A stretch of DNA of 47,429 bases, taken from assembly GCA_019313825.1 (NCBI GenBank), contig JAFDAM010000007.1, positions 1-47,429 of the forward strand. Direction: 5' to 3'. Of the stretch, positions 7,633 through 32,922 are shown in pieces. This DNA comes from Deltaproteobacteria bacterium (GTDB lineage Bacteria; Desulfobacterota; DSM-4660; Desulfatiglandales; HGW-15). How positions within the stretch are numbered: position 1 is the first letter of the stretch; every line of letters begins with the position of its first letter. A program made the position numbers and the translations under genes. The notes under the pieces were generated by a model that was given only the letters and a program-made list of their open reading frames with translations, did no database searches and was not told the DNA's origin.

Positions 7633-7685
7633 TCAGTAATGTCCGGTTAGGATGTTGCATTAATGACATTTGTATTCTAAAGATG
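7633..7685. repeat. Truncated copy of the TCAGTAATG inverted-repeat element
   Basis: About 53 bp match the left part of the element at 10647-10760, beginning TCAGTAATGTCCGGTTAGGA. The match includes the terminal repeat and the adjoining TGCATTAATGACAT. The right terminal repeat is not found downstream, so this is a half copy or an end of a larger, deleted insertion sequence. Confidence 0.7.
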
Positions 7686-8060
7686 GCCGGTGGGGATCTC
7701 TTTGAAGGGTCGAACTTGTTTAAGCGCCGGAAACCGACACTCCACAAGACGAAGCGGACGGCCAGTGTCCTGTATTATCGTCCGGAATGTGGGACAGGGC
7801 GTTGGCAAAGACACCCACACCGCCCGCTTGGGAAGCACGACACCATCGAACTAAAGCCGATAGGCTTTCGACCCGGAAAAGAGATTGACACTGCCTCTGA
7901 ATACTTGCAATTAAGCAATGTTGGTTTATCGAGGGTAACCTGAATTTTCGAATAGATATGTGTCATTGTGAATTCAGGCATTTATATGAGAGAAACGCTG
8001 TTTTCATTCTATATTTGGACAGTAATGGACATTTATATATATTCAGGTTATTAAAGAGCC

Positions 8061-10607
8061 ATGGCATCTCACGGGAAAAAAACCCTTTATCCTTATGTAC
8101 TAGATCATAAACCCGGATTCTTTCTGAACGGGCTCCTGTACAGGCTTTTTAAAAGAGTCCGTCTTGATGAAAATATGAAAGAGGCCCTGAAACAGATGCA
8201 CAAGAAAGGGTCCGTGGTCTATGCGAGCAAGTATAAGGGAAAGCTGGATTACCTCCTGTATCATTACAATTTCCGAAGAAGACGTCTGCCCTATCCCAGA
8301 ATCGCCTTTGATCTCAATATATCCTTGTTCTTGCCCATTTCCAGGCTCTTTAAGATCCTGGTATCTCAAATCTCCGCTTTTTTCAGATATGGTCGGATCC
8401 CAAACCCCTATCAATCCGGGTTTTACAGCAGGGCCATTCAAAAGGGAACACCGTCACTTATCTTTCTGGTTGATCCAAAGGGTTTTATCAGACAGTTTAT
8501 CCATTCTGAAAAGGATCATCTGCAATTTCTCCTTGAAACACAGAAGGATACTGATCACCCTATTTTTATTGTCCCACAGCTCATTCTCTATAAAAAAACA
8601 CCTGAAAAGGATTACACGAGCCTGGCCAACATATTGTTCGGGTTTAAAGACCATCCGGGTTTTATCAGGAAGATTGCCCTGTTTTTCAGACACTATCATC
8701 ATGCCTTCATAGATTTCGGCAGACCCCTGGACCTTAAGGCCTATCTGTCGGACCAGCCCGCCGGGAGACCCCTCAATGATATGGCTACGGAGATCAAGCA
8801 GATGCTCATTGACGATATCGATGGCCAGAAAAGGGTCCTCCTGGGTCCTATCATGAAATCCAGGCAACAGATCAAGGAGATTGTCCTCAGGGATCCGAGG
8901 GTCACCAGGTATATTGAAAAGAGGGCCTCTGAAAAGAGAAAAACGCTCAAGCAGTTGAGAAAGAAGGCTGGTGAATATTTTGATGAGATCGCGGCGGATT
9001 TTAACATCACTTACGTGCAGCTCTTTTACAGGGCATTGAAATGGCTCTGGAAAAAGATATTTGAAGAGATAGATGTTAATAAGTCCGACCAGGCAAAGGT
9101 GAGGGAATGGGCTAGAAGAGGCCCGCTGATATTTATTCCTTCCCATAAAAGTCACATCGATTATCTGGTCCTCAACTATGTACTTTACGACTATAATATG
9201 CACATCCCCAGGATTGCCGCCGGACAGAATCTGACCTTCTGGCCCATGGGTTATATCTTCAGAAAATCCGGTGCCTTTTTCATCCGTCGCAGTTTCAAGG
9301 GCGCAAGACTCTATGCAGAGGTATTTGGAAGATACATCAAGGCCCTTCTTGAAGAAGGTCACCCCATTGAATTCTATATTGAAGGCGGCCGCAGTAGAAA
9401 TGGGAAACTTGTGCTCCCCAAGATAGGTTTCCTTTCAATCCTGCTTCGGGCCTATCATGAGGGATTCTGTAAGGATCTTATATTTGTCCCCACTTCCATA
9501 ATCTATGACCGGGTCCTAGAGGAGAAATCCTATCTGAAGGAGATCAATGGGGGTACTAAAGAGAAGGAAAGTTTCAGACAGATTATTAATGCGAGGCGTT
9601 TCCTTAAAAAAAAATACGGGAAGATCTATGTGCGATTCAATAATCCCTTTTCACTGAATGAATACCTCTCCCAGAGGGAGCAGGACGCTAAGGATACCAC
9701 TAAAGATCTCGCCTTTCATCTGGTAAGATCCATAAACGAGGTGTCTGTAGTTACCCCCCTTTCCCTTATTGCCACCGCCGTTCTGGCCGCTCACCGCAGT
9801 GGGTTCCATATGTCAGAACTTTTGGAGACGGTAAACATCCTTTTGAAGTTCCTTGAAAACCATAAGATGCCCATTGCCAATACACTCAATGATCCCTCAA
9901 AGGCGGTTAAGGATACCGTATCTCTGTTAACTAACTGGAAGGTCGTCAACTTAATGGAAGAAGCACCGGGAGAAGAGGAGACATTTTACTATGTGGATGA
10001 TGATAAAAAGATGGAGCTTGAATATTATAAAAACAATATCATCCATTTCTATATTCATCACTCTTTTGTGGCCCTATCACTTTTAAACGGCATCGCGGAA
10101 GAGAAAGAAACAGAGTCAATAATTTCCGACTACACCTTTTTGAAAGAACTTTTTAAGAATGAGTTTGTTTTTGATAAGGATGAAGACCTCCATGGAAAGA
10201 TCGGCTCGATCACTGAATATTTTTTAAAGTCAGGGTTTTTGACCCGTTCCAACGGAGACAGGGGCTACAAGATCACGAAACTCGGGTTCGATAAATTGCC
10301 TGTATGGGCAGCCCTTTCAAAGACCTTTCTTGAATCATACTGGATCGCGGCCAAGGCCATAAGTCAGAAAAAAGATGGTGGAGGTCTTTTAAAGAGCATG
10401 AACTACTTGGGTAAACGCCTTTATAAACAGGGAGTTATCGATCATATAGGGGCGCTCTCGCAGGTAAATTACAGAAATGCCATGGGCTTTATCAATAGAA
10501 ACGTCCTTAACTCTAATAAGCGTTCATCAAAAGATCGTCCCAGCTCCTTTGAGAGTCTTTCACAGTTCAGCAAGCGGTTATATGATCTGTCCCATTATGG
10601 GCAATAG
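8061..10607 (+). CDS. plsB: Glycerol-3-phosphate acyltransferase (PlsB-like)
   Basis: This 848-aa protein matches the size of PlsB (about 800 aa). The acyltransferase core lies near residues 355-480. Block I is PSHKSHIDYL (the HxxxxD catalytic motif), block II GAFFIRRSF, block III IEGGRSRNGK and block IV VLPKIGFLS. The C-terminal part is a long helical region as in PlsB. It should transfer an acyl group to glycerol-3-phosphate at the inner membrane, the first step of phospholipid synthesis. It starts at ATG 8061 with an AAAGAG-like ribosome binding site. It stands alone on this strand. An alternative is a broader LPLAT-family enzyme, but the motif set fits GPAT best. The large 302-aa ORF on the opposite strand is a shadow. 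Confidence 0.9.
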   Translation: MASHGKKTLYPYVLDHKPGFFLNGLLYRLFKRVRLDENMKEALKQMHKKGSVVYASKYKGKLDYLLYHYNFRRRRLPYPRIAFDLNISLFLPISRLFKILVSQISAFFRYGRIPNPYQSGFYSRAIQKGTPSLIFLVDPKGFIRQFIHSEKDHLQFLLETQKDTDHPIFIVPQLILYKKTPEKDYTSLANILFGFKDHPGFIRKIALFFRHYHHAFIDFGRPLDLKAYLSDQPAGRPLNDMATEIKQMLIDDIDGQKRVLLGPIMKSRQQIKEIVLRDPRVTRYIEKRASEKRKTLKQLRKKAGEYFDEIAADFNITYVQLFYRALKWLWKKIFEEIDVNKSDQAKVREWARRGPLIFIPSHKSHIDYLVLNYVLYDYNMHIPRIAAGQNLTFWPMGYIFRKSGAFFIRRSFKGARLYAEVFGRYIKALLEEGHPIEFYIEGGRSRNGKLVLPKIGFLSILLRAYHEGFCKDLIFVPTSIIYDRVLEEKSYLKEINGGTKEKESFRQIINARRFLKKKYGKIYVRFNNPFSLNEYLSQREQDAKDTTKDLAFHLVRSINEVSVVTPLSLIATAVLAAHRSGFHMSELLETVNILLKFLENHKMPIANTLNDPSKAVKDTVSLLTNWKVVNLMEEAPGEEETFYYVDDDKKMELEYYKNNIIHFYIHHSFVALSLLNGIAEEKETESIISDYTFLKELFKNEFVFDKDEDLHGKIGSITEYFLKSGFLTRSNGDRGYKITKLGFDKLPVWAALSKTFLESYWIAAKAISQKKDGGGLLKSMNYLGKRLYKQGVIDHIGALSQVNYRNAMGFINRNVLNSNKRSSKDRPSSFESLSQFSKRLYDLSHYGQ

Positions 10608-10618
10608 GATAAATGAAA

Positions 10619-10646
10619 GGCGTAGGGCATAAGGCGTAAGGCAAAT
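10619..10646. repeat. 7-bp periodic repeat (GGCGTAA family)
   Basis: Four heptads in perfect register: GGCGTAG/GGCATAA/GGCGTAA/GGCAAAT. The last unit is the left target duplication of the inserted element that follows. Confidence 0.7.
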
Positions 10647-10760
10647 TCAGTAATGTCCGGTTAGGATTTTGCATTAATGACATCTGTATTCTAAAGAGAC
10701 CCATACGGGCAATCAACTTCCATATGACAGCATTGCAAAATCCTAACCGGACATTACTGA
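10647..10760. mobile_element. 114-bp MITE-like element with 27-bp terminal inverted repeats
   Basis: The ends begin TCAGTAATGTCCGGTTAGGA and are perfect inverted repeats over 27 bp (10647-10673 and 10734-10760). The element is flanked by a 7-bp direct repeat GGCAAAT (10640-10646 and 10761-10767), the hallmark of transposition. There is no coding capacity, so it must have been moved by a transposase elsewhere. A left half copy lies at 7633-7685. Its location between the plsB-like gene and a convergent small gene could also let the hairpin act in transcription termination. Confidence 0.85.
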
Positions 10761-10803
10761 GGCAAATTACATCTACATCCCGGATTCTTATAATCTTTAA
10801 ATC

Positions 10804-11769: not shown

Positions 11770-12233
11770 GTTTGTGTTTGTTGGTCACTATAATACGTTA
11801 TTTCAGAATTTACCAAGGTCCGGAAAAATAATCAATACAAGTTTCACGACATTCAGGCTATCGAGTTCACGGTTGATCAATCTCCAAGCTTGAACCTCGA
11901 ACCTTCGTGGTCACTATCTTTAGGCACTCCTGTCCAAAATCGATTTTTATTGGACAGCAATGATATTTGGCAGGCATTCACAGTCATTCACAGGTTACTA
12001 ATAAAGGAAATCCATGTGAAATCCGATGATACAGACATATGTTTTTCCTTGACACCTTGACCAACAATATGGCATGTAGAATTTTTCACAAACTTATATG
12101 GTAAACATTGCCCAAATGATACTTATTTACCCACTTGTGTAAAACCTTCCGCTCCTGCTATCCCTTGATATTTCATATAATTAAGGATAACATAACAGGT
12201 TGTTACAAGTGTATTAAACAGGAGACGTTTATT
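11770..12233. other. Intergenic region upstream of the hdrA operon
   Basis: A 464-bp gap between divergent genes that should hold the hdrA-mvhD-metVF promoter. A TTGACA at about 12050 and a TTGACC 8 bp further on occur in AT-rich DNA, but no well-spaced -10 is convincing. No sigma-54 site matches. A short heptad-like stretch TTGAACC/TCGAACC lies at 11890-11903. Nothing else is supported. Confidence 0.4.
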
Positions 12234-32811: not shown

Positions 32812-32922
32812 TTGCTTGATGCTCGATGCCTGTTGGAACAAAGTGGAAATCCCGTCTTTAGCGGGAAAAATTAGTATTTCCTTAAACATCCAGTATCCAG
32901 TGACAAGTATCCAGTATCACGT
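32812..32922. repeat. Two 7-bp periodic repeats
   Basis: TTGCTTG/ATGCTCG/ATGCCTG (32812-32839) matches the 6801 family. ATCCAGT/ATCCAGT/GACAAGT/ATCCAGT/ATCACGT (32888-32922) matches the 6882 family. A CCCGtctttagCGGG hairpin lies between them, repeating the layout seen at 6801-6923. Confidence 0.65.

Follow-up and report, generated by a model that had tools for sequence, protein, structure and literature searches.

Positions 10648-10759 of the window (the whole stretch of DNA that was analysed, 47,429 nucleotides long) are very probably occupied by a non-autonomous miniature element (MITE) that an IS4-family transposase has mobilised in trans. The MITE reading itself is strongly supported by a high copy number, non-coding content, ends of the insertion-sequence type, a target duplication of constant length and intergenic sites, so that an earlier sequence-only reading, which had called the element MITE-like, was right in kind. 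The features are as follows.

7634-8027, plus strand: chimeric MITE without target duplication; its left end is that of the present family, its right end CATTACTGTCCAAA (minus strand) that of a second MITE family
8061-10607, plus strand: upstream lipid-synthesis gene for a glycerol-3-phosphate acyltransferase (PlsB-like; Pfam GPAT_C and Acyltransferase); 31 bp separate its stop codon from the target duplication
10619-10646, plus strand: degenerate heptad array of four units, with the element inserted into its end (tandem-repeat scan with TRF, and reading by eye)
10639-10647, no strand: left copy of the target site duplication, AGGCAAATT, 9 bp
10648-10759, plus strand: the 112-bp, gene-less, non-autonomous element of the short MITE subfamily; length (111-112 bp) and junction shared with C72 (two copies) and C19
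10648-10673, plus strand: left terminal inverted repeat (CAGTAATGTCCGGTTAGGATTTTGCA, 26 bp), which agrees with the ends of IS4-family insertion sequences at as many as 25/26 positions
10693-10697, plus strand: AAAGA at the internal-deletion junction joining both end modules of the ~308-bp parent (alignment of the 112-bp with the 304-331-bp copies)
10734-10759, minus strand: right terminal inverted repeat, 26 bp, the perfect complement of the left one
10760-10768, no strand: right copy of the target site duplication, AGGCAAATT, 9 bp

The element is short, contains no transposase gene and consists of two perfect 26-bp ends that enclose 60 bp; three matches to the end were found in the window against 0.03 expected by chance. 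The sequence-only reading had described perfect 27-bp inverted ends enclosing 114 bp, flanked by a 7-bp duplication, GGCAAAT. Perfect inverted ends and a flanking direct duplication are indeed present, but the ends are 26 bp long and the duplication measures 9 bp. T10647 and A10760, read earlier as a 27th base pair, are the last base of the left copy of the duplication and the first base of its right copy. That these two bases pair follows from a target preference, A standing at position 1 in 11/15 and T at position 9 in 10/15 family copies of the same genome.

The genome assembly from which the window comes (158 contigs, 64.6% complete) holds about 80 family ends with at most two mismatches, 46 forward and 35 reverse, and a reversed-pattern control for the 26-bp end gave no match there. 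From this assembly 25 complete copies were collected, which lie at unrelated sites and whose flanks are unrelated from one copy to another. The 9-bp duplication is exact in 11 of the 25 and, if a single mismatch is allowed, present in 15, while exact duplications of 7, 8 or 10 bp were found in none. All 25 insertions are intergenic, none of them interrupting an open reading frame of at least 100 codons. Most complete copies measure 304-331 bp and carry unlike end modules, called A (TTAATGACATYTGTATTCTAAAGA) and B (AATGCYGNCATATGGAAGTTRATGGCC). In a 119-bp copy (C80) only ~16 bp of one end are left, yet its 9-bp duplication is exact. Some long copies (L021, L025, L034, L036 and L041) carry at one position of the ~308-bp core a further insert of ~150 bp (CTGATCCACCAT...ATGGTGGATTTGGG), which seems to be a third small repeat lying within the MITE.

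These duplication statistics also decide on the heptad array. The array, which the sequence-only reading had reported, is real although short and weak (TRF score 38), with the units GGCGTAG GGCATAA GGCGTAA GGCAAAT. The same reading took the insertion to be aimed at heptad units, with one unit duplicated, since GGCAAAT stands on either side of the element. Such targeting is so improbable as to be negligible: the duplication runs on to AGGCAAATT, which equals none of the units, an exact 7-bp duplication is absent from the whole set of copies, and heptad units are not conspicuous next to the other family members. Thus the overlap of the 9-bp duplication with the unit GGCAAAT is coincidental, and a 7-bp duplication with heptad targeting was rejected. 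As a separate observation, degenerate period-7 arrays occur in the window at 10619-10646 and 32888-32918 and in 13 other places in the fetched loci; in 262 kb they are commoner than arrays of other periods from 4 to 15 (14 versus 0-6), and their words vary (GAACCGT, GCTATGC, GCTGAAC and others). Heptad repeats are known from cyanobacteria, and the arrays seen here resemble them.

It is also very unlikely that the element is a static structural repeat, a hairpin kept between convergent genes for transcription termination or RNA stability. Folding computation gave a very strong hairpin on either strand (-53.9 and -57.9 kcal/mol, z about -9.6), and its position just 3' of the plsB-like gene would suit such a role, so that an effect of the hairpin on mRNA ends is conceivable. 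Against immobility stand the constant length of the duplications, the insertion-sequence-type ends and the unrelated flanks at each copy; furthermore, a scan showed nothing terminator-like at the element, and the element is present at none of the relatives' PlsB loci with readable downstream sequence. No RNA family of Rfam reached the gathering threshold in the window. In two relatives (G008 and G011) a similar small convergent frame seems, by eye, to follow directly after the PlsB stop codon. No empty site with matching flanks was obtained among the relatives sharing the downstream gene: in the closest syntenic ones the entire intergenic stretch is missing. Under insertion of a mobile MITE, the uninserted site would read ...GGCGTAAGGCAAATTACATC..., with a single AGGCAAATT. 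Two other genomes carry related elements. In another genus of the family (G006), many copies of a different, 344-bp MITE have the same ends, with 9-bp duplications ATTTTCACC and AGTTGTAGG; in another family of the order, a 220-bp stretch of one contig (G067:C261, L174) matches the present MITE with as much as 97% identity, which reflects either horizontal movement or binning contamination.

The ends tie the family to autonomous elements. A search for the MITE ends in 85 genomes of the class led to an element of 1316 bp (L173, G066:C320, positions 64-1379), in which ends matching the MITE at 24/26 and 21/26 positions enclose a gene for a 386-aa transposase of the IS4 family (NF033592 at 208.6 bits, cut-off 115; PF01609, DDE_Tnp_1). 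Searches of the whole phylum and of one order brought further relatives with ends CAG[TC][AG]NTGTCCGGTTAGGNNNTTGCA, which agree with the MITE end at as many as 25/26 positions. These autonomous IS4-family elements of the same order and phylum measure ~1.31-1.33 kb and have CAGTAATGTCCGGTTAGGTTTTTGCA-type ends; their duplications are exact over 9 bp in L242, L245, L247 and L249 and match at 8/9 in L246, and most other complete autonomous copies in the relatives have no clear intact duplication. The absence of any matching insertion sequence, which the sequence-only reading had named as counting against it, was thus not borne out, and a transposase gene of the kind that it proposed to look for was found, between closely matching ends, in relatives. 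In the element's own assembly, 64.6% complete, an L173-type transposase was not found, the best match being 32% identical. Multi-copy insertion sequences often break assemblies. Carriage by phage or virus was considered and rejected, the exact 26-bp end being absent from viral_contigs and the L173-type transposase from both viral_contigs and the phage collection; a plasmid source was likewise rejected, as this transposase type appeared only at below 60% identity among the plasmid matches. No solved structure matching the transposase was found.

A different mobiliser is offered by the element's own genome, a question that concerns the identity of the transposase and leaves the MITE reading as it is. 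The candidate, C98 (L058:985-2320), is a 1336-bp IS4-family element with DUF4372 and DDE_Tnp_1 domains; no other intact IS4-type transposase of the assembly lies between such ends. The outer ~15 bp of its end (left end CAGTGCTGTCCGGTTAAGATTTT) and its exact 9-bp duplication (ATACCACAT) match the MITE, and its relatives in the genome collection, with ends of the CA[CG]T[AG][CG]TGTCCGG type, show an exact 9-bp duplication in 25 of 44 elements with paired ends. However, its ends agree with the MITE end at only 21/26 (left) and 18/26 (right) positions against up to 25/26 for the L173 lineage, and TTGCA, in the inner part of the MITE end, is common only to that lineage; the two transposases are 30% identical. 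That C98 moved the MITE is therefore improbable, although a possibility to be weighed. On end similarity, cross-mobilisation by an L173-type transposase is presumed. In the preferred mechanism, a transposase of the L173 lineage, encoded by a ~1.32-kb IS4-type insertion sequence between CAGTAATGTCCGGTTAGG ends, would recognise the 26-bp ends, excise or copy the element and insert it through attacks staggered by 9 bp, which would duplicate AGGCAAATT.

Among the described IS4 subgroups, the best fit is IS4Sa, a placement that rests on ends, size and duplication rather than on a transposase tree that includes named ISfinder elements. This subgroup has ends CA------T (T at position 9), a length of 1150-1750 bp, 8-10 bp repeats and a YREK motif (PMC2266710, table 1; De Palmenaer et al. 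2008, 'IS4 family goes genomic'). The MITE ends likewise begin with CA and have T at position 9 (CAGTAATGT), the 9-bp duplication of the MITEs and their autonomous relatives lies within 8-10 bp, and the ~1.32 kb of the relatives falls in the 1.15-1.75 kb range; their transposases, with PF01609 and NF033592, contain the YREK, or Y(2)R(3)E(6)K, motif (YKLRWDVEKFFAWWK, YRYRWRVEIFFKWIK, by eye). Unlike IS4Sa elements, the window element has no transposase.

No description of the present family was apparent among the papers found by searching for MITEs together with Desulfobacter or with the IS4 family. The family is well supported and new, yet of an ordinary kind, non-autonomous IS4-family elements such as MIC231 being already known. 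MIC cassettes carry passenger genes. PMC2266710 cites the MIC231 / IS231-derived cassettes of Bacillus cereus as non-autonomous IS4-family elements thought to move in trans, and a reference listed there calls the IS231-MIC231 elements modular in its title. MIC231 resembles the present MITE in being non-autonomous with IS4-family ends, but belongs to the IS231 subgroup with 10-12 bp duplications and CAT ends, whereas the present, non-coding family ends in CAG and duplicates 9 bp. Bacterial MITEs are 50-1000 bp long, non-coding and almost exclusively intergenic, with terminal repeats and target duplications (PMC4596501); the present family shares all these traits, and its ~80 ends lie above the 10-20 copies typical for bacterial MITEs (PMC4596501). 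Our understanding of such elements is unchanged by the family. What it contributes is a well-documented IS4-type MITE of high copy number in a bacterial lineage with few descriptions; parent and deletion derivative are clearly related, and there are matching autonomous elements. It should be of use in annotating such genomes and, because many copies sit at contig ends, in explaining assembly breaks.

As judged by alignment, the 112-bp form is an internal-deletion derivative of the ~308-331-bp parent MITE. In the window copy module A is fused directly to module B; the AAAGA at the junction occurs in each of the parental modules, pointing to a slipped-strand deletion at this microhomology. One junction is common to four copies of 111-112 bp, namely the window copy, a pair on C72 and a copy on C19. 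As the 9-bp duplication is intact in all four and differs from one to the next, a single product of deletion has probably itself spread by transposition to four sites or more. Presumably the deletion came first and transposition second, as supported by the same junction beside different target sites. A fifth copy (C81), whose ends have decayed and whose junction is longer by a single A, may be an independent deletion. The window copy is undecayed, with an intact duplication and with perfect ends, and from the latter the sequence-only reading had argued for recent movement. That argument is not conclusive: the four 111-112-bp copies are 91-95% identical, differing by 5-9%, and the ends are the constrained part, expected to stay intact because they are the transposase-binding sites. 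Perfect ends with an intact duplication hence do not establish recent movement.

The half copy noted 3 kb away at 7633 does have a second left end of the family, but proved to be a chimera of two MITE families, at 7634-8027. The A end of the 10648-10759 family makes up the first ~70 bases; from there to 8027 the sequence matches that of a second MITE family (L165) at 86%. The latter has its own ends, CACTCTTGTCC and CATTGCTGTCC, and a 9-bp duplication, ATTTTGACT. The flanks of the chimera differ (ACTTGACTT versus GACATTTAT), and this lack of a duplication is as expected if two elements recombined. A broader proposal, which we regard as rather doubtful, is that the MITE families are modular, with a shared inner core (GTGGGGGTCTCTTT...AAAAGAGA) between different end pairs that swap by recombination, as in this chimera; if true, such a core could switch between transposases. 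The second family (window 7634-8027; L165) has ends CA[CT]T[CG][TC]TGTCCAAA and a core shared in parts with the present family. Elsewhere in the window, positions 11925-11962 (CACTCCTGTCCAAAATCGATTTTTATTGGACAGCAATG) resemble an end module of this second family.
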